Source of the DNA: a virus
DNA: 47,569 bases
Reading direction: 5' to 3' (one strand)
IMG/VR virus record: IMGVR_UViG_3300025928_000013
Span: 1 to 47,569 of that record
Part shown: in pieces, positions 1-14,370 of the stretch
Layout: the number at the start of each line of letters is the position of its first letter
Position numbering within the stretch: position 1 is the stretch's first letter
The notes under the pieces: model-generated
What the model was told of the DNA's origin: nothing
The model's input: the letters and a program-made list of their open reading frames with translations, nothing else
Database searches by the model: none
Made by a program: the position numbers and the translations under genes

Positions 1-101
1 CATTCCGCATGCTCGCCACTCCCAAACACGCAGGCCTCGCAGCACTGGGCCGGATCCGGCCTGTAAGGGTTTGAGCGGGGTCCGTCGCGATCGGTGGTCA
101 T
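1..101 (-). CDS. Small Cys-rich protein, N-terminal fragment (cut by window edge)
   Basis: An ATG at 101-99 overlaps the TGA of the preceding gene (ATGA) and opens a frame that stays open to base 1, giving 33 residues beginning MTTDRDGPRSNPYRPD. The visible part contains a CCEAC cluster followed by VFGSGEHAE, which looks like the first half of a small zinc-binding protein. The rest lies outside the window. It is the third gene downstream of the terminase in a translationally coupled string. I cannot assign a function. Confidence 0.55.
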   Translation of the reverse strand, partial: MTTDRDGPRSNPYRPDPAQCCEACVFGSGEHAE

Positions 102-430
102 TTGAATGGCTCCAGGTAAAATGCTGGCTCCAGAAACTCGACCTCAAAGTGGACGCAGTCCTGGTTGTCACAGCACATCCGCCGCGAGGGGGCATGTTCC
201 GCCCCATCGAGGTAGCGCATGGTGTGCCCGCAGCGACACCGCCAGTAGCCCTCGATCCACATCATCCCGTTGCTTTCGCATGGATCGTCTACCGGGATAA
301 CCATTCCTGGAACGGGCGGGTGCGTTTCGAGGTGCTTAGCAACAGCAGCCTCTTGTTCCGAACGTGTCCTCGCCAGCAATGGCATGATCGAATCCTTCCA
401 GAACTCAATGAATATCGGGTTAATCTTCAT
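98..430 (-). CDS. Small zinc-ribbon-like protein downstream of terminase
   Basis: This 110-residue protein starts with MKINPIFIEFWKDSIMPLL. The start is set by an 11-base overlap with the terminase stop and an AAAGGAG ribosome-binding site seven to eight bases upstream. The C-terminal half holds CRCG and then CCDNQDC, a spacing consistent with one zinc-binding site, and several acidic and aromatic residues follow. Small zinc proteins are common between terminase and portal genes, but no particular role is proven. A longer version reading back into the terminase gene was discarded because that stretch is antisense-like shadow. Confidence 0.7.
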   Translation of the reverse strand: MKINPIFIEFWKDSIMPLLARTRSEQEAAVAKHLETHPPVPGMVIPVDDPCESNGMMWIEGYWRCRCGHTMRYLDGAEHAPSRRMCCDNQDCVHFEVEFLEPAFYLEPFK

Positions 431-2105
431 CTTCGTCTCCTTTGCGGCCATACTTCGTCGGCTTGGCGAGATGCTGGTTCGCCAGCGAATCGCGGAACAC
501 AAACGCGCGGCGTGCATACGGCAGGCCTTCGATGCACAACGCCAAACCAAAGACGTCATCATCATGTCCGACGCCCTCTTCCCTGCCGTTGGGCTTGCGC
601 ACAAACCGGCGCAACTGGTCGATGGTTTCGGGATCATGCACGCCGATCGAGCCGTCCCGCAGGGCGCCGTCGAGTTTCGAAATCAGCACCGGCCGGAACA
701 CCGTGTTGGTATCGTGGCCGAGCTCCTGCAGCAGCGCCGGCCGGCGATCGCTGGGGTCGCGTTGCTTCGAGTAGATGAGCTCCGATGGATAGCTGAGCTC
801 GAGCAGCTTTCCGATGACCGCCTTTCCCACCGCCTTCGCCTCCGGACACTGGAATGCCCAGTTGTAGAATTTGCCGAGGTGGAACAAACGCTGCGCCCAT
901 GGGTGCGGTTCGTAGCGTTCCTTCAGCTTGGCCATTTCCTCACCGGTGTCGCAATCCATCACGGTGGCCGAGCCGTAATCCGGATCCGAGCCGCCGGCGC
1001 CTTTTTCCTTCGCTAACGGATCCACGCCCTCGGCGTGATCGGATCCGATGATGTAGTGGCCGCCCTTCCGCGGCTGCTTGTAGATGACGAGCTCGCCGCG
1101 GCCGTCCTCGGACTGGCGAAATTGAATCCGCTGCTCAATCCCCAGGTCGACGAGCTCGAGGCGGCCGCGGGGCGCATCGGCAACGATGGGGAGGCGCGCA
1201 ACGGCTGCCATGTCAAAGATGGTGCGCCCAGTCGCCTGGAACGCCTCCTCGGAATTACCGGGGTGCTCCTGGCGGAAGCGCTCGACCTTGCCCTCGCAGG
1301 CCGTCTCGATCATCCACCGCCGCCACACGATTTGCGGGACGGTCAGGTTGTACTTCTGCAGCTCCTCCAACTCATCGCGCATGAGCTTGAAGCCGGCCGG
1401 CACAACCATCACGTTTTCCGGGTGCTCCCAGTAGGCGAAAAAGACGGCCGCCCAACCACTGGCGCGCCGCGGATCCGACGCCTGCTTCCACAGATCGTAG
1501 AAGGGGCCACCGACGCCATTTGCGGTGGTTTCGACAATGACGCCAGAGTCGAGGGTGTGCGGAACGCGCTGCATCAACCCCGTCATCAGGGTCGACATGT
1601 CCCTGTAGAACGCTGCCTCCGAGAGCTGCACCCAGTTGAAAGGTGCGCTTCGGCCGATCTCTGCGTTGTTCGCGGTGCCCACCAGGATGGATGAGCCGTT
1701 ACGCCAGCGCAGGTGCCGTTCGGTGTCTTTCTCGAGTTCCGGAAGGAGCAGTGCGGCACCGAATTCCGAGCCGTACGGGTTGGCCAGGTACGACCGGATG
1801 TACTGCTCGTAATACTCGAAGACCAGGCCGGCGTGCAGATCGGTGTCAGCCAGCACTAGGGCGCGCCGGCCGGGGAAGAACGGAACCCTGCGGAACACCT
1901 CGGTGGCCGTCGAGGATGACATCCACACCTGCGCCGCTTTCAGCACCACCTGGCGCACCGGAACCCGAGCGAGTTCCTGCTTCCGGATCGAGCGGTTGAG
2001 TTTCTGGCCGGCGCACGAGTTCCGGTACTGAACGGGTACACCCTCTTTGTTTTTGATTTCCAGGTGGCTGCAGAACTTCGCGTGATCGTTGAAGCCGCGG
2101 ATCAT
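420..2105 (-). CDS. Terminase large subunit (TerL), packaging ATPase and nuclease
   Basis: This is the motor that pumps phage DNA into the prohead and cuts it. The 561-residue product has a Walker A-like segment at about residues 57-66 (KAAQVWMSSST), a Walker B-like segment near 158-167 (NWVQLSEAAF), the coupling motif TTANG near 193-197 followed by GGPFYDLW, and an RNase H-type nuclease half with GSDHAEGVD and a downstream PDYGSATVMD acidic stretch. The ATG at 2105 lies just after the stop of the upstream small gene; the open frame continues upstream, but that part reads as shadow of other genes. It follows the small terminase and sigma-factor genes in one leftward operon. Confidence 0.93.
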   Translation of the reverse strand: MIRGFNDHAKFCSHLEIKNKEGVPVQYRNSCAGQKLNRSIRKQELARVPVRQVVLKAAQVWMSSSTATEVFRRVPFFPGRRALVLADTDLHAGLVFEYYEQYIRSYLANPYGSEFGAALLLPELEKDTERHLRWRNGSSILVGTANNAEIGRSAPFNWVQLSEAAFYRDMSTLMTGLMQRVPHTLDSGVIVETTANGVGGPFYDLWKQASDPRRASGWAAVFFAYWEHPENVMVVPAGFKLMRDELEELQKYNLTVPQIVWRRWMIETACEGKVERFRQEHPGNSEEAFQATGRTIFDMAAVARLPIVADAPRGRLELVDLGIEQRIQFRQSEDGRGELVIYKQPRKGGHYIIGSDHAEGVDPLAKEKGAGGSDPDYGSATVMDCDTGEEMAKLKERYEPHPWAQRLFHLGKFYNWAFQCPEAKAVGKAVIGKLLELSYPSELIYSKQRDPSDRRPALLQELGHDTNTVFRPVLISKLDGALRDGSIGVHDPETIDQLRRFVRKPNGREEGVGHDDDVFGLALCIEGLPYARRAFVFRDSLANQHLAKPTKYGRKGDEDED

Positions 2106-2125
2106 GGCGCCCGCCTCGGCCTGGT

Positions 2126-2380
2126 TCAGCGTGGCGGGCACTTCGCCTCGGCTATTTTCCGCATGGCGCGCTGGATCCAGAACATCCGATTCTCGCCAGA
2201 CACCGACACCGTAGCAGCTGCGAACGTTTCGAGCACCGCGCGCGCCGTGAAGGGGTCCGTCAGGGTTCCAATGCGAAGCGTTATATCGCCCGTCACCGGG
2301 TACCATTCGCCCACCAGCCTGTCGCCATCCATCAGGCGAGCTGCGTCGACACCGTCCGCGTCGGTCCACTTCAGACTCAT
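2126..2380 (-). CDS. Conserved-looking small protein between sigma factor and TerL
   Basis: The gene encodes 84 residues (MSLKWTDADGVDAARLMDGD...). Its ATG shares an ATGA with the sigma-factor stop at 2377-2380, so translation is probably coupled. The N-terminal half is beta-rich (GEWYPVTGDITLRIGTL) and the C-terminal half is helical and basic. No domain is recognised. Its position directly upstream of TerL suggests a packaging or late-regulation accessory, which is inference. Confidence 0.72.
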   Translation of the reverse strand: MSLKWTDADGVDAARLMDGDRLVGEWYPVTGDITLRIGTLTDPFTARAVLETFAAATVSVSGENRMFWIQRAMRKIAEAKCPPR

Positions 2381-2955
2381 GCGACCAGACCCCCACATCG
2401 CTGTGCCAGCATCGTTAAAGCCTCGCGGTGGATTTGCGACAAACGCGCCGGTCCAACCTCCACCAGGTCGGACAATGCTTCAAGGGTCATCGAGCCGCCG
2501 TAGACACACAGGATCACAGCCGCGTGGCGCGCGGGCAGCCTCTGGACGATCGGCCAGACCTCCCGTAGCTGGTTCGTCGCAGCCACGGCCTCCGGAGAGG
2601 GCGCCCTATCGTGCAGCCACTCTTCCGGCGCCGGATCATCAACGTAATACGCGCCACGCCTGTCGAGGAAAAACGTGTCTGATAGCGACTCATGCTCGTG
2701 CTCGCGATACTCCCGCCGGCGAATCGCATCCCAGCAGGCGCCGCGCACCCGCCGCACCGCGTAGGAGCGGAACGAAACCCCGCGGCGCCGATCGAACCTC
2801 TGCGCGGCGTGCAACAGGGCGAGCTCCGCGGGTCCAAGCAGATCGTCTTTCCTGAACCATGTCGGCAGCTTCTTCGCTACTTCCCAGGCGATATCATGCG
2901 CCCACGCCAGGTGTTCCATGGCCAGTTGGTTACGTGCCTTGTGGGTTTTCGCCAT
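2377..2955 (-). CDS. Phage-encoded sigma-70 family factor, sigma-28-like
   Basis: The 192-residue protein has a sigma region 2 core at residues 37-80 (DDLLGPAELALLHAAQRFD, then GVSFRSYAVRRVRGACWDAIRR), the pattern of FliA/SigB-type factors. Near the C-terminus is a region 4 helix-turn-helix (LEALSDLVEVGPARLSQIHR). Region 3 is short, and the middle (about 90-135) is an acidic/proline insert. It should direct host RNA polymerase to a phage promoter class, most simply late genes. It overlaps the small terminase gene by 26 bases and the next gene by four, so it is co-expressed with packaging. ATG at 2955 chosen because it gives a complete region 2. Confidence 0.85.
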   Translation of the reverse strand: MAKTHKARNQLAMEHLAWAHDIAWEVAKKLPTWFRKDDLLGPAELALLHAAQRFDRRRGVSFRSYAVRRVRGACWDAIRRREYREHEHESLSDTFFLDRRGAYYVDDPAPEEWLHDRAPSPEAVAATNQLREVWPIVQRLPARHAAVILCVYGGSMTLEALSDLVEVGPARLSQIHREALTMLAQRCGGLVA

Positions 2956-3391
2956 TGCTCAGCTCTTGATAGAGGGCAAGTAAGTCGACCATCTCGCCCG
3001 CGAATTTCAGGCCCACGGCGCCGCTGTGGTCCACCTGGTGTCTTTCTCTGTATTTACTGGGCTTCGCGCCGCGCAGCAGGAACTGCAGCAGGGAGTCGGA
3101 GTACTCGCGCACGGTCACAGGGACCAGCCCGCCCGTCTTACGGTCCTTCATCAACGAGATACGACCCTGGAAGACCACCGGTTTGTCGACCCCGTGCACG
3201 GCTCGACGAACGGCTTCATCCTCGAGTACTTCGATCGCTTCCTCTTTGCAGGCGAGGAAAGCGGCCTTGTAATCCGGATCCTCATGTAGCCGGCGGTAGT
3301 GGATCGAGCGGTGGATCTGTGCCGCGGCGGCCGCCATCGTGACGCTGCCGGTATTCCTATACGCTTGTAAAAATACGCTCGCTCGATTCAT
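2930..3391 (-). CDS. Probable terminase small subunit (TerS)
   Basis: The 153-residue protein starts MNRASVFLQAYRNTGSVT, followed by AAAAAQIHRSIHYRRLHEDPDY, a helix-turn-helix of the kind seen in small terminases. The KYRER motif typical of this family appears near the end (FLLRGAKPSKYRER). TerS recognises the packaging site and loads TerL. It sits upstream of sigma and TerL as expected. An in-frame GTG at 3448 would add 19 residues and overlap the upstream gene; the ATG at 3391 is preferred because the extra residues look non-conserved. Neither start has a strong ribosome-binding site. Confidence 0.75.
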   Translation of the reverse strand: MNRASVFLQAYRNTGSVTMAAAAAQIHRSIHYRRLHEDPDYKAAFLACKEEAIEVLEDEAVRRAVHGVDKPVVFQGRISLMKDRKTGGLVPVTVREYSDSLLQFLLRGAKPSKYRERHQVDHSGAVGLKFAGEMVDLLALYQELSNGENPQGT

Positions 3392-3438
3392 TGGCGATAC
3401 TCGCTGTGTCCGCCAATTTGTGGACAGTCTGACATCAG

Positions 3439-3621
3439 CTATGCACACTTGCGTAACGCATCCGCGTACATCTGCTCTAGAGCGGAGGCGTAACGCCTGA
3501 CCAGCGGAGCATCCCGCAGCTCCGCTGAAGCAACCAGGTCCACCAGGAGAGTGTTGAACAGCTTCTCCTGTGCGTTCCTGGGATCAATGGGTACAAGGGC
3601 CGCTGCCCTTGCTCGTTTCAC
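3439..3621 (-). CDS. Small helical protein, paralogue of the gene at 8369-8563
   Basis: The 60-residue product contains a core (VPIDPRNAQEKLFNTLLVDL ... DAPLVRRYASALEQMYADAL) that matches the protein at 8369-8563 on the other strand at 32 of 49 aligned positions, counted by eye. It starts with GTG in a GTGA overlap with the previous gene, so it is translationally coupled. The fold is predicted helical with no membrane segment or metal motif. Function is unknown. The duplicated and conserved core argues that it is a real protein. Confidence 0.78.
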   Translation of the reverse strand: MKRARAAALVPIDPRNAQEKLFNTLLVDLVASAELRDAPLVRRYASALEQMYADALRKCA

Positions 3622-3875
3622 ACCACAGGCGCAGCCGGCGGCTTCAACTGCGTGATCAGATCCGCAACCGTGGTCTGCAAGACCTGCAGCGCGGCGACCT
3701 CCGCAGCATTCGCGGTCACTTCGAGAGCCTGATCTCCGGTGACTACGGACTTGGCTGCGTCCACCTTGGCCTGCAGGGCATCGGCAGCTCCCTGGTCGTT
3801 GGTGGTCTGGTTGTGCGCGTTGACGCGCGCTGTTTCGGATTGCTCTACGGCCGCAATGGCATCGCCCAGTGTCAT
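3618..3875 (-). CDS. Alanine-rich helical protein, unknown function
   Basis: The 85-residue product (MTLGDAIAAVEQSETARVNAHN...) is an Ala/Val/Gln-rich amphipathic helix ending PPAAPVV. It could be a small coiled-coil structural or regulatory protein. It is coupled to the next gene by GTGA and lies 18 bases after the membrane protein upstream, with a purine-rich ribosome-binding site (AAAAAGGAAT) before its ATG. No known family recognised. Confidence 0.65.
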   Translation of the reverse strand: MTLGDAIAAVEQSETARVNAHNQTTNDQGAADALQAKVDAAKSVVTGDQALEVTANAAEVAALQVLQTTVADLITQLKPPAAPVV

Positions 3876-3893
3876 ACGTTTATTCCTTTTTTG

Positions 3894-4124
3894 TTATTGG
3901 CGGAACGATTCCGCCTCGCTCATCTCGCGCTTGTTTTCCAGTCGACTGACGCGCTGCGCCAGGTTCTCGTGGCGTTCCCTGCAGACTTCGGATCCGGCGT
4001 ATCGTTTGTCCATTTCGACGAACAAACGCGCCTGGAACGCATCGAGCAGCAGCCGCGTGTAAAGCCCAAAGGCTGCCCCTGTCAGTGCGAGCGCGGCACA
4101 GATCGCGCCCACATCCCACTTCAC
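3894..4124 (-). CDS. Small membrane-anchored coiled-coil protein
   Basis: The 76-residue product has one N-terminal membrane helix (about residues 5-28, VGAICAALALTGAAFGLYT) followed by a charged helix containing ENLAQRVSRLENKREMSEAES, a probable coiled coil. It starts with GTG in a GTGA overlap with the KTSC-domain gene. Architecture fits a lysis accessory (spanin- or holin-like) or a small anchored inner-membrane protein. The sequence alone does not separate these. Confidence 0.7.
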   Translation of the reverse strand: MKWDVGAICAALALTGAAFGLYTRLLLDAFQARLFVEMDKRYAGSEVCRERHENLAQRVSRLENKREMSEAESFRQ

Positions 4125-4333
4125 GAGAGCCTCTGAAACTTATGCAGCCCGCGGATATGCTGCGCCAGGTACCCGCCAGGGGAGTCGGATGCCATCAGCG
4201 CAGCATGTTTCGCGGCCGGCACGCCGAAATATTCGTACACCGATCCGCCCTTGAATTGGACGTGCATTTTCTGGCTCGCCGGATCATAACCGACTTCCTG
4301 CACGTTCGAACTCTTCACCGGCTTGCGGTCCAT
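4121..4333 (-). CDS. KTSC-domain protein
   Basis: The 70-residue protein is a whole KTSC-type domain: VKSSNVQEVGYDP, then VQFKGGSVYEYFGVP, then ASDSPGGYLAQHIRG. These small domains are frequent in phages and mobile elements, often as single-domain proteins or fused to lysyl-tRNA synthetase-like enzymes. Their molecular role is not established. It follows the Gam-like gene directly and overlaps the next gene by four bases. Confidence 0.82.
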   Translation of the reverse strand: MDRKPVKSSNVQEVGYDPASQKMHVQFKGGSVYEYFGVPAAKHAALMASDSPGGYLAQHIRGLHKFQRLS

Positions 4334-4846
4334 TTACGCGGCCTCCGTCATCGGAAGGTCCAGGTCGAGGAAGAATTTGCCGGTGTCGTCCAGCTTCAGA
4401 CCGATCTTCCGCAACTGATCAGGCTTCAAGGAACGCTTGAGCTTTACCTTGTCGAGGCAGGGCAACTGGCGCAGCAGGAAACGCCGGCGGTAGAACTTCA
4501 TTACCGTTTCGGTCACCCGCTCCCACGTCCATTTGTCATCGATGGGAACTAACGCTGGATTGGTGGCGTACCGCATGCCGATCGTGCAGCCGCCCATCCT
4601 GCAGGAGACGGTTTTCCCCGTGGAGTTCCCGGACAGGGTCTTTCGATAGTAGGCCTCGATCTGGCGTTCGAGGAGGGCAATTTTCTCGCTTTCGCGATCG
4701 ATCGCCGGCGCGTGTTTGATGGCTATCTTGCTGATTTCAAGGTCACGATCGGCGGCCAAAGAGGCCAATTGGAGGGTAGACTTCTGGAGGAAGCGGATCG
4801 CGTGCTCGCAGTCGGCCGGTTTCCAGGTTTCCGCGGCTAGTTCCAC
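4334..4846 (-). CDS. Mu Gam-like host-nuclease inhibitor
   Basis: The approximately 170-residue product matches the Phage_Mu_Gam layout. A long N-terminal helical hairpin (residues about 15-85, including IKHAPAIDRESEKIALLERQ) is followed by a compact C-terminal domain with GKTVSCRMGGCTIGMRYATNPAL, WERVTETVMKFYRRRFL, LDKVKLKRSL and a final GKFFLDLDLP. Gam binds linear double-stranded DNA ends and blocks RecBCD/Ku-type processing. The GTG at 4846 gives a normal family length; the frame is open upstream to 4993, but those 49 residues overlap the divergent promoter region and look unlike the family. It is divergent from the LuxR-type gene. Confidence 0.7.
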   Translation of the reverse strand: MELAAETWKPADCEHAIRFLQKSTLQLASLAADRDLEISKIAIKHAPAIDRESEKIALLERQIEAYYRKTLSGNSTGKTVSCRMGGCTIGMRYATNPALVPIDDKWTWERVTETVMKFYRRRFLLRQLPCLDKVKLKRSLKPDQLRKIGLKLDDTGKFFLDLDLPMTEAA

Positions 4847-4865
4847 GTCTGAAGCATGCTCTTTA

Positions 4866-4874
4866 CGTGGATAA
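4866..4874 (-). promoter_or_regulatory. DnaA-box-like 9-mer upstream of the Gam-like gene
   Basis: On the minus strand this reads TTATCCACG, one base from the consensus TTATNCACA. It lies in the roughly 100-base divergent region between the Gam-like and LuxR-like genes. It is a single site, so it may be chance, but the phage encodes a DnaA domain-IV-like DNA binder (7950-8249). The same divergent stretch holds no convincing -35/-10 pair. Confidence 0.25.
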
Positions 4875-4949
4875 GTTCTCAATACTGTCTTTCGAAGCCG
4901 AGATTCCCTGTACACTTGATGCAGTGAAGTTACGGCGGTCCAACCAACT

Positions 4950-5219
4950 GTGCAACATGTTTCCGTCCTGTTCCTCGGCGCGGGAATCCCCAAGCACTTC
5001 TTGAGGCTGGCCGCGCATGAGCAGCGCGTGTTGCAGTTGCTTGCCTACAGCAACAAAGAGATTGCCGCAAGACTTCTTGTGACCGAGGGAACCGTCAAGG
5101 CTTACGTATCGGCCATGCTCAGTCAGTTGGGTACCGCCAATCGCACCGAACTAGCCCTGTGGGCCGCGGAGCACCGGGAGTGCCTGCTCCCTGATACGTG
5201 GATCGAGGTGGAAGCCTGA
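4950..5219 (+). CDS. Single-domain LuxR/GerE-type DNA-binding regulator
   Basis: The 89-residue protein is essentially one LuxR_C helix-turn-helix: residues 22-70 read AHEQRVLQLLAYSNKEIAAR, LLVTEGTVKAYVSAMLSQLG and TANRTELALWA. No receiver or ligand-binding domain is attached, so activity may be set by expression level or oligomerisation. It starts with GTG at 4950, and its TGA overlaps the ATG of the next gene. It is divergent from the Gam-like gene and is the best candidate for a lysis-lysogeny or early/late switch regulator here, which is inference from context. Confidence 0.78.
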   Translation: MQHVSVLFLGAGIPKHFLRLAAHEQRVLQLLAYSNKEIAARLLVTEGTVKAYVSAMLSQLGTANRTELALWAAEHRECLLPDTWIEVEA

Positions 5220-5617
5220 TGGCCGCAGCACTTATTCCCCTTGCCCTGCCGATCGCGAGCGAGATTATCACCCTGATCACCGGGTTGGTACACTCTCACG
5301 CCCCCGCGGCCGAGGCGCAGCTCGCCGGCGGCACCGGCCCGGTGAAATTCACCCAGGTTTTTCAGGCTGTGATGACGCAGTTACAGGCAGCCGCGGCCGC
5401 CGGACAAATTGCCGGCGTGCTGCCCTCTGATGAAGCCGTGAAGGTGGTAATCCAGGCCGTGGTGACGTCCATGAAGCTGCAGGGGCAGCTCGACTCGAGC
5501 ACGCCGGCGCCGGCGCCCCTGGCCTCACGCACCGCAACTGGAGCTATTACCGCGCCGGAAGCTAACAACGTCGTCCGTTTGTCGAAGGGGCAGACGATGC
5601 TCGTACAGGTGGTTTGA
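5219..5617 (+). CDS. Small hydrophobic protein, possible holin-like
   Basis: The ATG at 5219 overlaps the regulator's stop (TGATG), fixing the start. The 132-residue product has an N-terminal hydrophobic helix (MAAALIPLALPIASEIITLI), a GTGPVKFTQVFQAVMTQL helix, and a Pro/Ala/Thr-rich tail. The one-helix plus GxGxxKF segment is reminiscent of LL-H-type phage holins, but the match is loose. Its last 93 bases overlap antisense with the predicted minus-strand gene at 5525-5722, so one of the two 3' ends may be wrong. Confidence 0.6.
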   Translation: MAAALIPLALPIASEIITLITGLVHSHAPAAEAQLAGGTGPVKFTQVFQAVMTQLQAAAAAGQIAGVLPSDEAVKVVIQAVVTSMKLQGQLDSSTPAPAPLASRTATGAITAPEANNVVRLSKGQTMLVQVV

Positions 5618-5722
5618 CCACCACCAGGCGAGCCAGGCGAAGCCCAGCACTACCCCGAATCCTATGATCGCGCCGGCGAGAGCTTTAGCCAGCAGCCATG
5701 GTTTTCTCAGCGCTCTTGGCAC
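5525..5722 (-). CDS. Small single-span membrane protein
   Basis: The 65-residue product has one strong membrane helix (AKALAGAIIGFGVVLGFAWL, then AWWW) with basic residues on both flanks. It overlaps the upstream gene end by 38 bases on the same strand, and its own 3' part overlaps a plus-strand gene. The clear transmembrane helix supports it as real; the C-terminal 30 residues are less certain. A lysis-related or inner-membrane accessory role is possible. Confidence 0.5.
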   Translation of the reverse strand: MPRALRKPWLLAKALAGAIIGFGVVLGFAWLAWWWSNHLYEHRLPLRQTDDVVSFRRGNSSSCGA

Positions 5723-6068
5723 GGTAGAGAGCCTGCAATAAGTCGACCCGCTCGCCAGCTCTTAGCTGCGCTTCCTTGGCCATCTGGAGCTCTTTGTTGA
5801 GTTCCTCTGCCGTCATCAACAGCACCGCATCGATCGGCCGCGGCGGCGCCGTAGCGGCTGTGTGCAGGGTGTGAATTAAGTCTGCGACCGGCTTCGGCGT
5901 TTTGCCCGCGGTTGGTTGCGGCGCCGTACGGTCACCCGCGCCGGCAGTTTTAGCCGCGTTGTATTTTGCCCACCTGGCTTTTGTCGCGAGCGAAATTCGT
6001 CTGCGGCCGGCCGCGGACATCTTTCGTTTTGGTGTCTGCTGGGGATCGATAGCAGATGCGTTTCTCAT
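5685..6068 (-). CDS. Basic-N-terminus protein with RRISLATKARWAK motif
   Basis: The 127-residue product begins MRNASAIDPQQTPKRKMSAA and continues GRRRISLATKARWAKY, a short basic motif that recurs in small phage and plasmid proteins. It is followed by a Pro/Thr linker and a C-terminal helix (AEELNKELQMAKEAQLRAGE). The basic end could bind DNA. A similar basic motif (RRRTEIAKKAAKARWSK) ends the protein at 14146-14337. Function is unknown. Confidence 0.65.
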   Translation of the reverse strand: MRNASAIDPQQTPKRKMSAAGRRRISLATKARWAKYNAAKTAGAGDRTAPQPTAGKTPKPVADLIHTLHTAATAPPRPIDAVLLMTAEELNKELQMAKEAQLRAGERVDLLQALYRAKSAEKTMAAG

Positions 6069-6240
6069 CCCTGGATTTTACTACTTTGAGAGAGACTGAC
6101 TCGCCGTACTGAGACAAGATGCGATCGCCCACTGAATATTTGGCGTAGAAACTCGACAGGCTTTCGGCCACGTTCCAGACTCTGTACCAGCGATCGAGGG
6201 CGCGCTGTGTGGCCTGGAATAGCTCCTCTTCAGGTTCCAA
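5950..6240 (-). CDS. Small hypothetical protein, TTG start, overlaps neighbours
   Basis: The frame gives 96 residues from a TTG that overlaps the last codons of the Acb2-like gene: MEPEEELFQATQRALDRWYR, then YSVGDRILSQYGESVSLKVV, which looks like a helix followed by a small beta domain. The last 119 bases overlap the next gene in another frame, so the C-terminus is doubtful. It is kept because it fills the gap between two supported genes, but it is weaker than its neighbours. Confidence 0.42.
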   Translation of the reverse strand: MEPEEELFQATQRALDRWYRVWNVAESLSSFYAKYSVGDRILSQYGESVSLKVVKSRDEKRICYRSPADTKTKDVRGRPQTNFARDKSQVGKIQRG

Positions 6241-6466
6241 TGTTGGGGTTCGGCTCGTGAATCGCGATCGAGGCGTTCGCCATCGCGACGGCTATCTGCA
6301 GGTGGGTTATAGCCAGAGACTTTTCTCTCGACTCGGGACAAATGTCGTTTATGGTGTGGGCAAAATCGCGGGCGTTTGAGCGGATCGTCTCGTATTTGTG
6401 CGGTTGCGAGCCGTGCGGGGCGTGGTACGAGAAGATCTGATCCAAATCGTCATTCGACATTGGCAT
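6230..6466 (-). CDS. Acb2-like protein (anti-CBASS cyclic-nucleotide sponge family)
   Basis: The 78-residue product is a single helical-hairpin domain: residues 10-25 QIFSYHAPHGSQPHKY, then IRSNARDFAHTINDICPESR, EKSLAITHLQIAV and MANASIAIHEPN. This IF.YH.P...Q..KY / EKSLAIT / ANASIA pattern is, as I remember it, that of the Acb2/Tad1 hairpin family. Characterised members sequester the cyclic oligonucleotides that activate CBASS and related defences. The aromatic and lysine residues near the N-terminus correspond to the region used for ligand binding in known Acb2. It lies in the small-gene cassette between membrane protein genes. Family assignment is good; activity is inferred. Confidence 0.78.
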   Translation of the reverse strand: MPMSNDDLDQIFSYHAPHGSQPHKYETIRSNARDFAHTINDICPESREKSLAITHLQIAVAMANASIAIHEPNPNIGT

Positions 6467-6478
6467 CTTGCGATTTTA

Positions 6479-6694
6479 TCATCGGCAGCCGTCCAGCAGC
6501 TTCTTTGTGCTCTCGAGACTGGAGTCAATCGCCTGCTGGCGGCCGCGCACGCTCTCGACCTGGCCGGCAATACGGTCCCACTCGCCATTCATCCGGGCCC
6601 AGTCCTTCTGGTGCGCCTGTTCCGCCGTCATATAGCCCCATAGCCACGCCGATGCGGCCAGCATCAGAACCTCAATGACCCGCTGAATTTTCAT
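6479..6694 (-). CDS. Small membrane protein with coiled coil
   Basis: The 71-residue product has an N-terminal membrane helix (VIEVLMLAASAWLWGYMTAE) followed by a charged helix (DRIAGQVESVRGRQQAIDSS LESTKKLL) that is probably a coiled coil. It could act as an inner-membrane spanin or holin partner, by architecture only. It overlaps the upstream gene by 23 bases and ends 13 bases before the Acb2-like gene. Confidence 0.68.
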   Translation of the reverse strand: MKIQRVIEVLMLAASAWLWGYMTAEQAHQKDWARMNGEWDRIAGQVESVRGRQQAIDSSLESTKKLLDGCR

Positions 6695-6962
6695 CGCCCG
6701 GGTACCATGGTCGCTTGAGTGGGAACACCCTGCTCAGCCTTGCCAGGAGTGCGGTGGTGGTCCGGTGCTGCCATTCTGACAGAGCCACGCTCGCCTGATG
6801 AATCAGGTGCACCAGCTGCGTGGCGTGCAGGAAGATTTCAATCTCCCGGCCTTGCGTGTCGAGGAAGACCAACTTGAAACAGTGGAGAGTTGTTTCGTCT
6901 GTGATCTCCACTCTGATACTCGGCGCCGGCGCCGGGGCCTGTGCGGACTGTTCTGGTGTCAT
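6672..6962 (-). CDS. Hypothetical protein with beta-rich core
   Basis: The 96-residue product has an Ala/Pro-rich start (SAQAPAPAPS), a beta-rich core (IRVEITDETTLHCFKLVFLD, GREIEIFLHATQLVHLIHQ) and a basic tail. It resembles small phage proteins that bind a partner or DNA, but I recognise no family. It sits ten bases after the gene at 6973-7206. Confidence 0.65.
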   Translation of the reverse strand: MTPEQSAQAPAPAPSIRVEITDETTLHCFKLVFLDTQGREIEIFLHATQLVHLIHQASVALSEWQHRTTTALLARLSRVFPLKRPWYPGDENSAGH

Positions 6963-6972
6963 GACAGGTACC

Positions 6973-7206
6973 TCATAAAATCAGCCTTAGCGGAATAATC
7001 TGAAGCGCCACCGAGGGCGCGCGCTGTTCCTGCAGCTCGCGTTCAAACTGGCTGGCATCCAGATCCTTGTGCACCGCGATTCGCGTGATGAACGCGTGGC
7101 AGGCTATGCCGCTCTCGGTGTGGCCTTCCCAGAGGCGCGCCGGCACGTCGACACCGTCCACAACCAGCGACACCACTTTATCCGTCGATTCGAGCATAAC
7201 TTTCAT
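6973..7206 (-). CDS. Hypothetical beta-sheet protein
   Basis: The ATG at 7206 overlaps the upstream TGA (ATGA), so I start here and not further upstream. The 77-residue product reads MKVMLESTDKVVSLVVDGVD, then VPARLWEGHTESGIACHAFITRIAVHKD (split here as VPARLWEGHTESG and IACHAFITRIAVHKD). This pattern of alternating hydrophobics suggests a small beta barrel. No family is assigned. Confidence 0.68.
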   Translation of the reverse strand: MKVMLESTDKVVSLVVDGVDVPARLWEGHTESGIACHAFITRIAVHKDLDASQFERELQEQRAPSVALQIIPLRLIL

Positions 7207-7415
7207 CGGTAAGCCTCCGGAATCTCGTAGGGTGTGAAAGCGGGGTTGGTCAAGTTCATTTCGTTTGCTAACTGGATCCACTCCCAGAACAGTTTCTCTT
7301 CACCGGCCGCCTTTGCAGCACCGGCAGCGTAGCCCATCAGCATCAGCAACCGCTCCCAGTCGCCGATGGACATTTGCAGGATGATCTCGTCATTCTGCCG
7401 TTGGTACGTAATCAT
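7203..7415 (-). CDS. Hypothetical helical protein
   Basis: The 70-residue product (MITYQRQNDEIILQMSIGDW ...) has an Ala-rich helix (LMLMGYAAGAAKAAGEEKLF) and aromatic residues at the end. ATGA overlaps on both sides place it firmly in the coupled operon running from about 8.25 to 6.97 kb. Function is unknown. Confidence 0.68.
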   Translation of the reverse strand: MITYQRQNDEIILQMSIGDWERLLMLMGYAAGAAKAAGEEKLFWEWIQLANEMNLTNPAFTPYEIPEAYR

Positions 7416-7753
7416 CGTTCACCTCCCGGTAACAGCCTCACGTTTCGCGCACGCTGGATCCCACCTCCGCAAGCAATCACCAGGCGCCGCGGCTGCAGCA
7501 CCTTCCTCGCCCAGTCCCTGGCCCATACTTCACTCGTTGGGTAGTTCGCCAGGATCCACCGCGCCGCTCGCTTGTGCAGCACCCGCGCGCGCGCCTCCAG
7601 CATGCGAGGCAAGTCCTCGGGTAGGTGGTACAGGCCATATCCGCAGAACGGTGGCCACACATCCACCGGGTTATCATAGACGTAGGTTTGTGGTTTGCCA
7701 TCGGTGGCCGGTTGGATCTGTGAACCCAGCCGGCCTTCACTCTCGCCACTCAT
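7412..7753 (-). CDS. Hypothetical protein
   Basis: The 113-residue product has a Tyr/Trp/Pro-rich middle (YDNPVDVWPPFCGYGLYHLP) and a basic helical C-terminus (ARARVLHKRAARWILANYPT). ATGA overlaps at both ends support this frame over competing frames. No catalytic or metal-binding pattern is evident. Confidence 0.62.
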   Translation of the reverse strand: MSGESEGRLGSQIQPATDGKPQTYVYDNPVDVWPPFCGYGLYHLPEDLPRMLEARARVLHKRAARWILANYPTSEVWARDWARKVLQPRRLVIACGGGIQRARNVRLLPGGER

Positions 7754-7962
7754 AGCCCCATCCCCCTTCGGTAGTCGTTCTCGAGCTCGTGCAGGTGCGA
7801 AAGCATCGCGAGATCTTCCTTCGCCGCCTTTACTTTTGGCTCAAGTATGCGGAGTTGCCGGCGCATCCACCAGCGACGGACCCGCGGCAAGATGTCGAGC
7901 TCGAAGAAAAGCACGCAGAGCCCGCCCATCAGACCCCAGAAGAAATACTTCAGATAGCCCAT
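7750..7962 (-). CDS. Small membrane protein with basic cytoplasmic helix
   Basis: The 70-residue product has one membrane helix (YLKYFFWGLMGGLCVLFFEL) followed by a strongly basic segment (PRVRRWWMRRQLRILEPKVK) and an amphipathic helix. By the positive-inside rule, the C-terminal part should face the cytoplasm. It overlaps the DnaA-like gene by 13 bases and the next gene by four. It could be a small membrane tether for the neighbouring replication protein, or a lysis accessory; neither is shown. Confidence 0.66.
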   Translation of the reverse strand: MGYLKYFFWGLMGGLCVLFFELDILPRVRRWWMRRQLRILEPKVKAAKEDLAMLSHLHELENDYRRGMGL

Positions 7963-8249
7963 ATACCACTCTCGTCTCCTTTCTCCGGATCATACGCTTC
8001 CGGCATCCATGGATCGCTAGGCTGCACCTGCCTCACCAGTGACAGGACCGCAGTATGGTGACGATCGAGCCAGCGTCCAATCTGGGGGAAGGAATAGCCC
8101 CAGTTCCTCAAGCGCACGCACACACGCCGGCGGGCAGCTACCACTGTGGCGATCTGTGAACGGGAAAGGATGTCTGCCACTGTGACCTCGTCGTTACAGG
8201 CCTCTTCTATGGCCAGCATAACTCTGGGTGGAAGTCTGTACTTCTCCAT
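7950..8249 (-). CDS. DnaA domain IV-like DNA-binding protein
   Basis: This 99-residue protein corresponds to the C-terminal DNA-binding domain of bacterial DnaA without the AAA+ part. VTVADILSRSQIATVVAARR (residues 22-41) aligns with the DnaA VADLLSKRRSRSVARPRQ segment. SFPQIGRW followed by DRHHTAVLSL (residues 53-71) aligns with the signature [20 protein letters not shown]. Such stand-alone domains could bind DnaA boxes at a phage or host origin. It is the first gene of a leftward operon and lies close to the Rep-like gene, which fits a replication or host-takeover role. Confidence 0.83.
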   Translation of the reverse strand: MEKYRLPPRVMLAIEEACNDEVTVADILSRSQIATVVAARRRVCVRLRNWGYSFPQIGRWLDRHHTAVLSLVRQVQPSDPWMPEAYDPEKGDESGIWAI

Positions 8250-8283
8250 TGTGAACCTCGAATATCTGTCTTATGATTTGGAG

Positions 8284-8309
8284 TGCCGGCTTGATCACCG
8301 GCATCTTTT
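8284..8309 (+). terminator. Terminator-like hairpin (possible attenuator)
   Basis: TGCCGG at 8284-8289 pairs with CCGGCA at 8298-8303 across an eight-base loop, followed by TCTTTT. On the plus strand this is an intrinsic-terminator shape. No plus-strand gene precedes it closely, and it lies 60 bases upstream of the next start codon, so attenuation of the short gene at 8369 is the likeliest role. Confidence 0.45.
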
Positions 8310-8364
8310 GCGGTCAGGGGCGGGTGCCTGTAACGCCCGCCTCTCCGCAAGCCTTTACAGGAGG
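8308..8364 (+). promoter_or_regulatory. Structured 5' leader with long hairpin and strong ribosome-binding site
   Basis: TTGCGG (8308-8313) pairs with CCGCAA (8345-8350), and inside it GGCGGG (8319-8324) pairs with CCCGCC (8336-8341). This makes a long interrupted stem that ends nine bases before a perfect AGGAGG (8359-8364). With the terminator-like hairpin just upstream, and sharing its U-tract, it forms a plausible cis-regulatory leader of the gene at 8369. Confidence 0.45.
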
Positions 8365-8368
8365 TTTT

Positions 8369-8563
8369 GTGAAACCTGAGAGCGCGAAACCATCGAAACG
8401 CCACATGGTTCCAATCGATGCGCGGAACACACAAGAGCGTACTTTTAACTGGTTGCTCACCATGCTCGTCGCGTGCGTCGAGTTGGGAGATGCCCCGCTG
8501 ACACGTCGCTATTCTTGCGCGCTGGAAGCAATGTACTCCGAGGCGCTTAGGCTGAAGAAGTAG
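8369..8563 (+). CDS. Small helical protein, paralogue of the gene at 3439-3621
   Basis: GTG at 8369 lies four bases after a perfect AGGAGG, which decides the start. The 64-residue product (MKPESAKPSKRHMVPIDARN ...) shares the core VPID-RN-QE--FN-LL--LVA--EL-DAPL-RRY--ALE-MY--ALR with the terminase-adjacent gene on the other strand. It stands alone, divergent from the DnaA-like gene and convergent with the Rep-like gene (17-base overlap). Independent expression with a structured leader suggests a dosage-sensitive protein. Function is unknown. Confidence 0.78.
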   Translation: MKPESAKPSKRHMVPIDARNTQERTFNWLLTMLVACVELGDAPLTRRYSCALEAMYSEALRLKK

Positions 8564-10256
8564 AAGTAGATTCACCGGAAACACCCTCCCCTTTTCGCAT
8601 CTCATCCACCAACAGATTAATGGCGATGCGATCGAGCAGTTCCTTCTTCTGGTCGCCACTCTGCCAGTTGAAGGTCTTCAGGAGCTGCGGATCCGCATTC
8701 AGCCGGGCCCGCGCTTTCAGCAGCAGTTTGGCCTTGTCTGCCAAAGCCATCTTCGAGTACTTCTTCTCGGCCGCCACCATGATCTCCGCCTCCAGCTTCA
8801 GAGCAGCTTCGTTCTCAGCGAACCGCTTATCCCGCCGGGCGATCGCCTCCCGGTCCTCCTGGGTCCGACGCGCGCGTTCTGGCGCCTCCCGCACCCAGTC
8901 CACCGCCCAATCGTAGACCAGGGGAATGTAGCGATCGCGCGGGTTTTTCGCGACCGAATGCGTAGGCCGCGGCAGGGTGCCCATGCCCGGGGGCAAGGCG
9001 CCCAGCTTCACGCCAACGTGGAATACAAACGCTTCCACCTCCTCCGCCGGCACAACGGACAGAACACGCCGCGCCCAAATGTCATCTCCCTTGTTTTCCG
9101 GAGTCACAAGCGGAGTTCCGAATCGCGCGTGCGGGAAGCGATTTTGATACTCGCGCATTTTGGTGAAGAGCAGATCGTATCCTGCCTGCTGTTCGGGGCT
9201 GAGTGGCTCAGGTTCGGGCGGTATGACTGCAGGCTGGAGGTTGGCCGCCTCTCTTTGTTCAACAGGAGGGGTTTTACGCGGCCTCTGCGTGGGTGCAGAG
9301 CCGCTCGCTCGCTCTAAACTTCTGGGTTTTTCTGAGTCCCTCTGACCAATAAGGATAGCGGCCTCAGAATCGGCTGTACTCACTTTCTCGCTTACTCCGT
9401 ACTCACTTGGTTCGCTACTCTGTACTGACTCAGATGCGGTCTGTACAGACCTCTTAGTCGCCGCCTCGGCGAGCACGGGCAGCAGCGCCGGCGCGTACAC
9501 GGTCTGGACAAGCTCCTGGCGCTCGGCATAGGCCGCAGCATGACCGTTCTTGAACGTGTGCTCCTGCCGATTTACCTTGACACCCCTCGCCGTCCATCTG
9601 TTATCCTCTCTCTGAGTGATGAACAGCCGAAAGGTAGCGACGACGTCGGCTTGCAGGGTGTTGGCCAGCTCACGCTCGGCCTTTTCCTCAGCCACCAGCG
9701 ATTCGATCTCGTTTTTCGGCCGGTCTTTTATTTGCTTCCAGATAAAGGCTCCGAAGAGGTCTGTACAGACCTTTTCGTTCGTGTAATCTTCGCCTTCTTT
9801 GGGAAGCTCTGGCTTACCGGCCTCCTCCTCGGCCCGCTTGAGGTCCACGGCGCCGTAAAAGTATAACCGGCGTTGCCCGCGATACTTGTTGCCTTTTTGG
9901 GCAGACCTATTCCCCCAGAGTCCCATCCGGCAGCCAAGCCGCCACGCGCGCCGCACGTTCGCCTCATCCATGTCGAGATCCGCGCTCGCGTTCTCAAGGT
10001 GAAGCTCGTAGCCTTCCTGGTCCACGGCATACGGTGACAGAATCGGCCAGTGGCAGGTATGTGCCACCATCCATGACCATAGCCGGATCACTTCGGGCCA
10101 GTGCTTCAGGCGCTGCCATTTATGTTGATCGGGCGGTAGCGGATCGAACCTGGGCGCTCCCATGGCCCTCATGCATGCCATGTTGTCGGACAAGCTGATC
10201 TTCTTGGGCGTCGACGCCGCCGCGGCCTTCCCTGATGTCTGTGTTTCTGGATCCAT
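8547..10256 (-). CDS. Putative replication initiator (Rep-like, winged-helix N-terminus)
   Basis: The 569-residue protein has an N-terminal region (about 40-130) reading WPEVIRLWSWMVAHTC, YELHLENASADLDMDEANVR and RAWRLGCRMGLWG. This looks like a winged-helix domain of the Rep/primosomal type, where helix-turn-helix is followed by a small hairpin. Residues about 270-360 are Ser/Pro/Glu-rich linker. The C-terminal half has FHARFGTPLVTPEN-like and coiled-coil segments (about 470-545) and ends in Ser/Thr repeats. Location between the DnaA-like gene and the integrase supports replication. No helicase or primase motif is present. Assignment is from pattern and context, not a firm family match. Confidence 0.55.
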   Translation of the reverse strand: MDPETQTSGKAAAASTPKKISLSDNMACMRAMGAPRFDPLPPDQHKWQRLKHWPEVIRLWSWMVAHTCHWPILSPYAVDQEGYELHLENASADLDMDEANVRRAWRLGCRMGLWGNRSAQKGNKYRGQRRLYFYGAVDLKRAEEEAGKPELPKEGEDYTNEKVCTDLFGAFIWKQIKDRPKNEIESLVAEEKAERELANTLQADVVATFRLFITQREDNRWTARGVKVNRQEHTFKNGHAAAYAERQELVQTVYAPALLPVLAEAATKRSVQTASESVQSSEPSEYGVSEKVSTADSEAAILIGQRDSEKPRSLERASGSAPTQRPRKTPPVEQREAANLQPAVIPPEPEPLSPEQQAGYDLLFTKMREYQNRFPHARFGTPLVTPENKGDDIWARRVLSVVPAEEVEAFVFHVGVKLGALPPGMGTLPRPTHSVAKNPRDRYIPLVYDWAVDWVREAPERARRTQEDREAIARRDKRFAENEAALKLEAEIMVAAEKKYSKMALADKAKLLLKARARLNADPQLLKTFNWQSGDQKKELLDRIAINLLVDEMRKGEGVSGESTSTSSA

Positions 10257-10581
10257 TTACAAAAGCCTTTCCGCCAGATGCGCGTAAAAACACGCCCCCG
10301 GCTCAAAAATTCACCTATCTGTGGTTGGAAAAAGCGGCTGGAGTTGGGATATCCTGAAGATGTCGATCAAACCCAGACGCTGTTACGCTTTCGCTGAGAG
10401 CCGCCGGCCAAAGTGACACTCAGCCAAAAGACCCAATTTCTGGGGGAGGTCGAGCCTGTGGCATGGCACACGCTAGAATGGGAATTCTTCCGCGTAGCCC
10501 CCCTCTTCTAGAACCAGTACCTGACTGCTTACGGTACCGGACTATCCAACATGGCGAGCTGCCTGTCGTACCTATGGAGGC
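10257..10581 (+). other. Intergenic region between Rep-like gene and integrase
   Basis: These 325 bases lie between two divergent genes and must hold their control signals. On the minus side a GGAAAGG ribosome-binding site precedes the Rep-like ATG, and a short GCGT/ACGC hairpin lies about 30 bases upstream. On the plus side TAGAAT at 10474-10479 could be a -10 box, but no good -35 is present. TGGAGG precedes the integrase ATG. I see no iterons that would mark an origin. Confidence 0.4.
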
Positions 10582-11493
10582 ATGCTCGATTCGTTGCTGC
10601 TGCTCGAAAGCGCCCGCTTGCAGAGCCTGACACACGCCCCAGGAACCCTCAAGGCCTATCGATCGGGCTGGACGCTGTTCCAGTCCTGGTGCGCCGGAAC
10701 ATTGCGACAGAGCGCTCCTGCCAGCCAGGAAACCGTATTGCTCTACCTCACCGACATCCTGCAGCTCGGGAGTGTCGGCACCGCGAACCAGCGAGCCTGC
10801 GCCATCAATTACCATCACCAGCAGGCAGGCTACGATCCGCCGGCAGGTCCCGCGGTCCATGCCCTGCTGCGTGGGGCCCGGCGCGATCGAGACGAGCGCC
10901 CGCAACCTAAGCTCGTTATCCCGGTCGACCTGCTCCGCCAAATCTGCAACGCGACTTATGCAGGCATTTCGCCGCGCGAGGTCCGCGATCACGCCATGAT
11001 CACGCTCGGCTTCTCGAGCGCACTGAGACGATCGAACCTGGCGGCGCTCGAGCTGGCTGATGTCCACCTCGAGGTGGCGGGCCTGGTGCTGCGCATCTCG
11101 AGAGAGAAGACGGACCAGCTCGGAGCAGGCCGGCATATTGGAGTGGCCCGAGGCTTGCACGCCGAGACTTGCCCGTTGCGTGCCATCGAGAGGTGGCTTG
11201 TCATCCGGGGCGGAGAGCCAGGTGCCCTGTTCGTGCCGGTCCGCGGCGCCATTCGCACCATGCATGCGGAAAGCGTCTGTCTCGCGGTGAAGCGAGGGCT
11301 GCGCCTGGCCGGCATCGATCCCGCTCTCTACGGAGCGCACAGCCTGCGGGCCGGCTTCGTGACCACCGCCGCGGAGAATGGCGTGCATCCGCTGGTGATC
11401 GCAGCTCAGACCGGGCACAAGAGCCTGGATAGTTTGAAGCCTTACTTCAGGTCGCGAGACATTTTCCGTGCGTCGGCAGCCGTCGGCCTGTAG
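10582..11493 (+). CDS. Tyrosine recombinase (phage integrase)
   Basis: The 303-residue enzyme has an N-terminal SAM-like core-binding domain (residues about 5-100, TLKAYRSGWTLFQSWCAGTL). The catalytic domain has a complete set: Arg149 in ALRRSNLAAL, Lys176 in SREKTDQLG, His253/Arg256 in HSLRAGFVT, His279 in TGHKS and Tyr288 in KPYFR. It joins attP to attB by Arg-His-Tyr chemistry and a 3'-phosphotyrosine intermediate. TGGAGG sits upstream of the ATG at 10582. It is the only rightward gene for several kilobases, and the inverted-repeat-rich DNA just downstream is the natural place to look for attP. Confidence 0.92.
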   Translation: MLDSLLLLESARLQSLTHAPGTLKAYRSGWTLFQSWCAGTLRQSAPASQETVLLYLTDILQLGSVGTANQRACAINYHHQQAGYDPPAGPAVHALLRGARRDRDERPQPKLVIPVDLLRQICNATYAGISPREVRDHAMITLGFSSALRRSNLAALELADVHLEVAGLVLRISREKTDQLGAGRHIGVARGLHAETCPLRAIERWLVIRGGEPGALFVPVRGAIRTMHAESVCLAVKRGLRLAGIDPALYGAHSLRAGFVTTAAENGVHPLVIAAQTGHKSLDSLKPYFRSRDIFRASAAVGL

Positions 11494-11673
11494 GTGTGGC
11501 CATCGGGCAATGTGCCTATTGCCGGTGTGTGAGCGAGATTGATAATCTGGCATTGCGGCCGACACCTCGGCAGCGTTTCACATGGGCGCGGATGCTTAGA
11601 ACCTCTGCGCCCAATTTCACAAAGCCCGCATATCTTTCGGGCACATCAACAAATCTTTGGGTTAAAGGTGAGA

Positions 11674-11750
11674 CTGACAGGCGAGGTAGTGCTTGAGGTG
11701 CGAGGTCAGCGGCGCTATAGTTACTCATCATCAGTGGACCTGCCTGTCAG
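11674..11750. repeat. Inverted repeat downstream of integrase
   Basis: CTGACAGGCGAGGT at 11674-11687 is the reverse complement, with one extra base, of ACCTGCCTGTCAG at 11738-11750. The intervening 50 bases also repeat GCGAGGT. This is the strongest inverted repeat near the integrase, so it is a candidate attP or accessory-site arm pair, or the stem of an RNA. Confidence 0.45.
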
Positions 11751-11883
11751 GTCTTCGATGTAGGGGGCGGGACGTGTTATAGACGCCCCGCTCCCGCTTT
11801 GTCCCGTATCACCGGACTGTGAATCGACAGTGATATCGTACCTATCCCCAGCGGAAATTTCCACCGGGATTCTTACCCCCCGA

Positions 11884-11998
11884 CTTGTTTGTTGGTTTGT
11901 TCAGCACTTCCCCCCGCAAAGAGGCGTCGGCAGGGGGTGGCGCGCAGTTTGCGGCAACGCGCCGGGGTCCCCCCAATCCGACTTACCAGACAAACAAG
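11884..11998. repeat. Long-range inverted repeat enclosing GC-rich hairpins
   Basis: CTTGTTTGTTGG at 11884-11895 pairs with CCAGACAAACAAG at 11986-11998 (one extra base). The enclosed 90 bases contain C-runs and G-runs that can pair and a GGCGCG...CGCGCC hairpin. This is the shape of a multi-branched RNA domain or of a recombination site. Confidence 0.42.
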
Positions 11999-12149
11999 AA
12001 TAAGCGCAGTGCGCCGCGGGAGTCAATATTTATCGTGAGTGTGGCAAAAAGCAGGCGTCGCGAAACGAATAGACAGTAGCGGCGCCGTCCCGGTGCATCC
12101 GCATCAACCGACCGAGGGCCATACCTCAACCCAACGTGGATCGCGCCGC

Positions 12150-12398
12150 TTAGACCCCCGCGACACTCTGCGCCGGCTCTCCGACGTCCGACGGCTGCGG
12201 CAATTCCGCAGGTTCCGGACCAGCCAGGATCGCAACGGCACGCTGCCAGGCGGCCGCCCAGATTGTAGCCGCCCGATCGAGCACCTCGTCGTCGGTCAGG
12301 CCCGGGTGGCCAGTTGAGTCGAGCCGCTCATACGCGAGCTGTTGCCGGGCAAATGGGCATGCCTGGATAAGGTCGGACGCGAGAATTTGAGGTTCCAT
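12150..12398 (-). CDS. Hypothetical protein with operator-like upstream region
   Basis: The 82-residue product (MEPQILASDLIQACPFARQQ ... DRAATIWAAAWQRAVAILAG) is helical, with an acidic Pro-rich C-terminus. The ATG at 12398 is preceded by AGGTGA. No helix-turn-helix is obvious. The gene is transcribed away from the recombinase cluster from its own promoter, which overlaps a perfect palindrome, so it is one of the few tightly controlled single genes in the window. Confidence 0.62.
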   Translation of the reverse strand: MEPQILASDLIQACPFARQQLAYERLDSTGHPGLTDDEVLDRAATIWAAAWQRAVAILAGPEPAELPQPSDVGEPAQSVAGV

Positions 12399-12412
12399 AT
12401 CACCTGCGAGTA

Positions 12413-12428
12413 TGGCACAGCTGTGCCA
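12413..12428. promoter_or_regulatory. Perfect 16-bp palindrome, candidate operator
   Basis: TGGCACAGCTGTGCCA is fully self-complementary. It lies between the -10 box and the start codon of the gene at 12150-12398, covering the expected transcription start, the classic place for a dimeric repressor site. The binding protein is not identified; the LuxR-type regulator and the phage's uncharacterised small proteins are possibilities. Confidence 0.6.
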
Positions 12429-12429
12429 C

Positions 12430-12458
12430 AACGTAGAGCAGGGGAATAGGGCCGACAA
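12430..12458 (-). promoter_or_regulatory. Sigma-70-type promoter for the gene at 12150-12398
   Basis: On the minus strand TTGTCG (12458-12453) and TACGTT (12435-12430) are separated by 17 bases, each matching four of six consensus positions. The palindrome follows immediately, so a bound repressor would block initiation. Confidence 0.42.
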
Positions 12459-12579
12459 GGAGGTGCCGAGACAACGCTATGTAGTCCCAGCGGGCATTCG
12501 GCCCCACAAACGGACAAGGCCCGACGGGGTGCGTTTAAGCCCTGTCAGGCCCAATCTCTCTCTTCGGAATTGAAACCTC

Positions 12580-12735
12580 TTAATCTTCCCACTTGTTGCC
12601 CGTGGTGTCGAGCCACCGCTCCTCTGCAACCGCTCTGAACTGCGGGAACTGCACCAGGAACATCTGCATCCTGTCGGCCGGCAGGTTGTCATCCAGCAGA
12701 ATTGCGAGCACGGTCACGGCTTCGATCTCGTTCAT
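12580..12735 (-). CDS. 51-residue hypothetical protein
   Basis: This short gene encodes MNEIEAVTVLAILLDDNLPA then DRMQMFLVQFPQFRAVAEER and WLDTTGNKWED. GAGGA lies a few bases upstream of the ATG. The amphipathic helical start and the ordinary composition support a real protein. It is downstream of the serine recombinase in the same direction and may be a small accessory. No family is recognised. Confidence 0.6.
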   Translation of the reverse strand: MNEIEAVTVLAILLDDNLPADRMQMFLVQFPQFRAVAEERWLDTTGNKWED

Positions 12736-12874
12736 AATTCCTCAGCTCATTCATGACGCGCCAGGCCCAGTGAGGCCCGCGGAACAGCGCGCCCCATGGT
12801 GCTCTCCACAGACCTACGCGGTGCTGCGTCCAACCGGCCGCCTGCAGATCCCTGATTCGCTGCCTGACTGTCAC
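12689..12874 (-). CDS. Small Trp/Arg-rich hypothetical protein
   Basis: A GTG at 12874, 13 bases after the recombinase stop, opens 61 codons reading VRQRIRDLQAAGWTQHRVGL then WRAPWGALFRGPHWAWRVMN. The pattern (helix, then aromatic-rich strand) looks protein-like. However, the last 47 bases overlap the better supported gene at 12580-12735 in another frame, and no ribosome-binding site is clear. Confidence 0.38.
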   Translation of the reverse strand: MTVRQRIRDLQAAGWTQHRVGLWRAPWGALFRGPHWAWRVMNELRNYERDRSRDRARNSAG

Positions 12875-12887
12875 CTTGTCGCAGATT

Positions 12888-13876: not shown

Positions 13877-13975
13877 CGAAACCCCCAGCCCGGGTGTCTA
13901 CTTTTGTCGCATTTCGTCGCAATCGTGCGGAACGTTGCGCGCCGAAACACACCCAAAACCAGGGTACCGCGCGCG

Positions 13976-14002
13976 CGCTTGTATTTCGCCACGCTTGTAT
14001 TT
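13976..14002. repeat. Paired 11-bp direct repeats upstream of the recombinase pair
   Basis: CGCTTGTATTT occurs at 13976-13986 and again at 13992-14002, a 16-base period. A nearby pair, TCGCATT and TCGCAAT, lies between about 13907 and 13925. The whole 130-base gap upstream of the gene at 13640-13876 therefore looks like a regulatory region with repeated protein-binding sites. Confidence 0.45.
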
Positions 14003-14008
14003 GAGGTT

Positions 14009-14337: not shown

Positions 14338-14370
14338 GTCGCCAAGCATAGCAAGCTTAACCAGCGGTGA

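Follow-up and report, generated by a model that had tools for sequence, protein, structure and literature searches.

Acb2, Tad1 and a 78-residue relative

Acb2, described from phage T4 (Vs.4, PDB 7uq2) and from Pseudomonas phage p26 (PDB 8h2j/8ixz), is a small phage protein that consists of a standalone PF24729 hairpin, in which a short N-terminal helix is followed by two long helices with an insertion at the turn. It forms a hexamer with pockets for cyclic di- and trinucleotides, binds CBASS nucleotides and protects phage against CBASS; the hairpin family as a whole sequesters alarm molecules which bacteria produce upon infection. Tad1 (CbTad1, PDB 7uav/8kbe; gp184, 8y6v) combines the same hairpin domain with an N-terminal beta domain, while Acb2 homolog 43, solved as 9ptq, is a short-turn hairpin with a P-E-[SG]-R-E-K-S motif. 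In the Panoptes co-expression assay of PMC12657218, T4 Acb2 is disabled by the substitutions Y8A and F82C, the former of which is described there as disrupting the binding of cyclic dinucleotides. In PMC12657230, T68M is described as lowering ligand binding by the same protein.

The window analysed here is an entire viral record of 47,569 bases (IMG/VR IMGVR_UViG_3300025928_000013; 60.6% G+C), the features of which are collected in Table 1. One minus-strand ORF, starting with ATG, encodes a 78-residue protein which shares with Acb2 the small size, the standalone hairpin and the succession of one short and two long helices, and with the T4 protein equivalents of Tyr8 and Thr68. It differs from the T4 and p26 proteins by a tight hairpin turn in place of the insertion, direct profile similarity to them is weak, and T4 Lys23 and Phe82 are replaced by Arg and Ala. 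Acb2 homolog 43 has the short turn and the P-E-[SG]-R-E-K-S motif in common with it but reads FDTH, without the tyrosine of the FxYH sequence. Likeness to Tad1 lies in the hairpin domain (a weak match over SRE..ALT..EEA.MW.N), whereas the beta domain is absent from the 78-residue protein, whose model is all-helical. Finally, the phrog_1454/PF24729 proteins of Paenibacillus, Gordonia, Mycobacterium and Streptomyces phages display the same motif set and, among the matches listed, 29-54% identity over the aligned stretch, but they belong to phages of other hosts and are annotated as hypothetical or as "phosphomannomutase".

Table 1. Features of the viral record in the order of their coordinates
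Feature	Position	Strand	Basis or remark
Terminase large subunit	420-2396	minus	phrog_2, E 2e-18
Terminase small subunit	2930-3448	minus	phrog_4044, E 3e-32
KTSC-domain protein	4121-4333		PF13619, 78.4 bits
Mu Gam-like protein	4334-4993	minus	
Three overlapping small ORFs (65, 127, 96 aa), downstream	5525..6240	minus	function not assigned by family search
78-aa protein of the Acb2/Tad1 hairpin family, a standalone hairpin as in Acb2	6230..6466	minus	PF24729, phrog_1454, AlphaFold2 prediction
Codon of Thr54	6305..6307	minus	aligned with T4 Thr68; Thr in 52/52 rows
Codon of Arg29	6380..6382	minus	aligned with T4 Lys23 / p26 Lys26; Arg in 51/52 rows
Codon of Tyr14	6425..6427	minus	aligned with ligand-binding Tyr8 of T4 Acb2 (p26 Tyr11); Tyr in 52/52 rows
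Six small ORFs (71, 96, 102, 70, 113, 70 aa), upstream	6479..7962	minus	function not assigned by family search
Weakly DnaA-like ORF	7950-8249		
Tail fibre proteins	~31-34 kb		
Major head protein	42440-43369	minus	

Family membership

Judged from its sequence, the 78-residue protein is a member of PF24729 with Acb2 architecture; it is not filed as an orthologue of T4 Acb2. Against the Pfam model (Acb2/Tad1 hairpin, curated gathering cut-off 27 bits) it scores 62.3 bits (E 5e-17) over profile positions 1-57 of 58, compared with 71.4 bits for T4 Acb2 itself and 30.1 bits for a Tad1 homologue. In PHROGs it matches phrog_1454 (E 5.8e-21); two further Pfam rows fell under the cut-off, and the protein was recognised by neither PADLOC nor NCBIfam. 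It is the sole PF24729 match in the whole 47.6-kb record, and the same search of 14 control genomes returned zero matches. With a profile of 51 relatives, from which the protein itself had been left out, its score was 108.5 bits, against at most 6.5 bits for 1000 shuffled versions of its sequence. One pattern scan of viral contigs further showed that 341 of 364 matching stretches encode relatives. The family assignment is based on the Pfam score, on these stretches, on the predicted fold and on the conserved ligand tyrosine. An earlier note on this DNA had placed a 78-residue Acb2/Tad1 hairpin protein at this very locus and proposed PF24729 as the check: both the ORF and the peptides quoted there are present, and the score lies above the cut-off. 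Its label "Acb2-type" stands as far as architecture is concerned, the Tad1 beta domain being absent, but direct similarity to the Acb2 proteins that have been tested is weak.

The extent of this distance can be expressed in figures. A profile of T4-like Acb2 plus p26 gave the 78-residue protein 2.6 bits, a score reached by 20 of 1000 shuffles, and T4-like Acb2 alone gave 1.0 bit, with 71 of 1000 shuffles scoring at least that much. With phmmer, the single protein found 9ptq in the PDB at E 0.25, and hhalign of the 52-row alignment A3 against alignment A4 returned a 75% probability over 25 columns only. Searching in reverse, the family profile gave T4 Acb2 13.1 bits, more than any of 1000 shuffled versions of the 78-residue protein, and a profile of 13 family members (the 78-residue protein included) retrieved Acb2 homolog 43 (E 4e-6) as well as Tad1 chains (E about 0.5). 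Since direct profile and hhalign similarities are weak, the connection to Acb2 is carried by Pfam's broad model, by the match to 9ptq and by the residues discussed below. The chance-level score with the T4-like/p26 profile, together with the lack of conservation of T4 Phe82, thus makes the protein a distant branch with Acb2 architecture.

Predicted fold

AlphaFold2, run with alignment A3, predicted helices at residues 5-11, 21-42 and 47-70 (mean pLDDT 92.8), a model that agrees with the Acb2 protomer as depicted in PMC12043709. In a VIA-align comparison over 72 chains, Acb2 occupied the first two ranks (T4 Acb2 7uq2: Z 6.2, rmsd 4.4, 64 aligned residues; 8h2x: Z 6.0, rmsd 2.8, 60 aligned residues), and unrelated helical proteins came next at Z 5.9 to 5.8. 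Helical hairpins are common folds and, because unrelated helical proteins attain Z 5.9, barely under the Acb2 chains, the fold alone proves little. In Foldseek searches, the first 11 matches in BFVD were all named Acb2/Tad1 hairpin proteins; against the PDB nothing scored below E 3.5, T4 Acb2 7uq2 being found at rank 7 (E 5.7).

The nearly equal VIA-align scores of unrelated helical hairpins would also suit a phage protein with a structural or regulatory role that has the same fold and binds no nucleotides, such as a scaffold built as an oligomer or an adaptor that binds other proteins. The gene order of Gordonia phages, where the family member directly follows the portal gene (an RNA ligase is also nearby), fits such a role. 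However, the position varies widely from phage to phage: the gene adjoins HicA/HicB in phage Bob, lies close to an ssDNA-binding protein gene in Heath and comes after tRNA genes in ScoobyDoobyDoo. Moreover, the conserved Tyr, Arg and Thr occupy ligand-linked positions of Acb2. As the standalone hairpin gene was not found in any of the seven other terminase-related records (7/7, possibly fragments), it does not appear to be a core structural gene of the lineage. A role without nucleotide binding is regarded as very improbable.

Residues at ligand-linked positions

Three MAFFT modes, in agreement with one another, were used to match residues over the 52 rows (Table 1). Throughout A3, Y14, Q21, P44, R47, A52 and T54 are invariant, and F12, H15, Y25, R29, N64 and others almost so; at Met62 the 78-residue protein departs from its branch, 50 of the 52 rows having Trp. 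Arg29 takes the place of Lys26 of p26 Acb2, which we take to be a ligand-contacting residue. In T4 Acb2, Phe82 stacks on the ligand; its counterpart here is Ala68, and p26 Acb2 likewise has Ala there, so this Phe is a mark of the T4 subgroup and not of Acb2 as a whole. With Ala68 in place of the stacking Phe82, the protein is not assigned to the T4-type subgroup.

The missing Phe82 and the distance of the branch from tested Acb2 proteins leave some room for a sponge that works in the same manner on a main target other than CBASS, be it a cyclic ADP-ribose isomer (Thoeris), a cyclic oligoadenylate (type III CRISPR) or some signal still without a name. PF24729 unites Acb2 with Tad1, which binds gcADPR in addition to CBASS signals according to PMC12043709, and a Tad1 is encoded in G007, one of the related phage records. 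On the other hand, the Tad1 beta domain, which contributes to the gcADPR pocket, is absent here, and the Tyr and Thr that are linked to the ligand in Acb2 have been retained. A main target outside CBASS is considered quite improbable.

Relatives and spread of the branch

Relatives of the 78-residue protein (E up to 1e-3) occur in 146 of 50,697 phage records, mostly of Paenibacillus, Gordonia, Mycobacterium and Streptomyces phages, and all of them are less than 60% identical to it. From the 341 viral-contig relatives, 80 were kept. With this number obtained in one scan, the branch is widespread and mostly unannotated, and its ligand could be tested through one small protein. A putative Acb2, named so by annotation, is reported for a Microbacterium phage in PMC13348362. 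Members in Paenibacillus and Brevibacillus phages (L006:1495-1710 and L010:992-1198) are annotated as "(putative) phosphomannomutase", a label that looks like a misannotation which has spread. One viral contig, L055, encodes two different PF24729 hairpins about 510 bases apart (3236-3493 and 4001-4210), which suggests two sponges with different targets.

The phage and its probable host

Positions 1-20000 of the record have no nucleotide similarity to named phages, and no relatives of the large gene at 8547-10256 were found in viral contigs. The 78-residue ORF is located between the Gam-like gene and the weakly DnaA-like ORF, among short overlapping minus-strand ORFs. The KTSC-domain gene adjoins the Mu Gam-like gene, and a relative of it is also present in two contigs with related terminases, L098 and L102. 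Contig L096 (10,183 bases) is 100% identical to positions 1-7050 and 45853-47569, the two stretches being separated by about 1.4 kb that is absent from the 47,569-base record. Because L096 spans both stretches, the two ends of the record are apparently adjacent in a genome whose map is circular or permuted.

The terminase is common to eight viral-contig loci, including the identical L096. Only one of the seven other terminase-related phage records has a PF24729 gene (L102:8657-9037, 126 aa), which lies directly upstream of the terminase and encodes a full-length Tad1 (E 7e-25 to a solved Tad1 in the PDB). This true Tad1 in a terminase relative means that the phage group does use such sponges. 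The gene for the 78-residue protein, in turn, looks accessory, given its patchy occurrence among terminase-related records that may be fragments.

In a scan of genome contigs, the terminase turned up in two Acidobacteriota MAGs and in no other record, together with a common block of structural genes; the related block in L142 may be a prophage in the chromosome or may stem from a phage contig that was binned together with the MAG. In the class of one of these MAGs, a SMODS synthase was detected in 19 of 151 sampled genomes, and at the best SMODS locus a SLATT_4 2TM effector adjoins the synthase, as in CBASS-like operons. PF24729 was found in neither of the two MAGs with related terminases (0/2) and in a single genome of the class sample (1/151), hence the hairpin gene is not a bacterial housekeeping gene. 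The soil phage with the 78-residue protein likely infects Acidobacteria, and a probable counter-defence gene is added to a phage group linked to Acidobacteriota, which are abundant soil bacteria.

Proposed function

With a probability of about 0.77, the 78-residue protein is a cyclic-nucleotide sponge of the Acb2/Tad1 hairpin family directed against CBASS-like signalling. The analysis established family membership, the predicted protomer fold, the conservation of the ligand-linked Tyr and Thr and the phage context, along with a patchy spread among related phages and SMODS synthases among genomes of the class to which the host probably belongs. For the oligomeric state, the ligand, the host and the way the protein acts in an infected cell, we infer the following scheme. 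The protein would most likely form an oligomer of helical hairpins, as in Acb2, and would bind tightly, without cleaving them, the cyclic oligonucleotides that a CD-NTase of the host, belonging to CBASS or a similar system, makes as alarm signals. The effector would then stay off and the infected cell could survive long enough for phage production. The gene is a well-supported, ordinary further member of the known phage sponge family and probably serves in counter-defence. It is rather unlikely that the FxYHxP branch to which it belongs represents a separate sponge class, with a signal unlike that of T4 and Pseudomonas-phage Acb2, and that in Acidobacteria phages it and Tad1 replace each other depending on which signals the host uses.

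The surrounding small ORFs

The "small-gene cassette" evoked in the earlier note does exist in the sense that overlapping ORFs follow one another on the minus strand, but the idea that the neighbours might be further anti-defence genes found no backing. Searches of Pfam, PHROGs, NCBIfam and PADLOC gave nothing significant for any of the nine small ORFs within 5525-7962 (9/9); PADLOC is devoted to defence systems, and the other three may contain few anti-defence genes. In a search of 99 related loci (counted after dropping the identical L096), relatives were seen only for genes outside the cassette and for none of the nine. An anti-defence island is thus unsupported rather than disproved. The 71-residue ORF at 6479-6694 has a hydrophobic N-terminus and weakly resembles an Rz-like spanin (phrog_17598, E 0.017).
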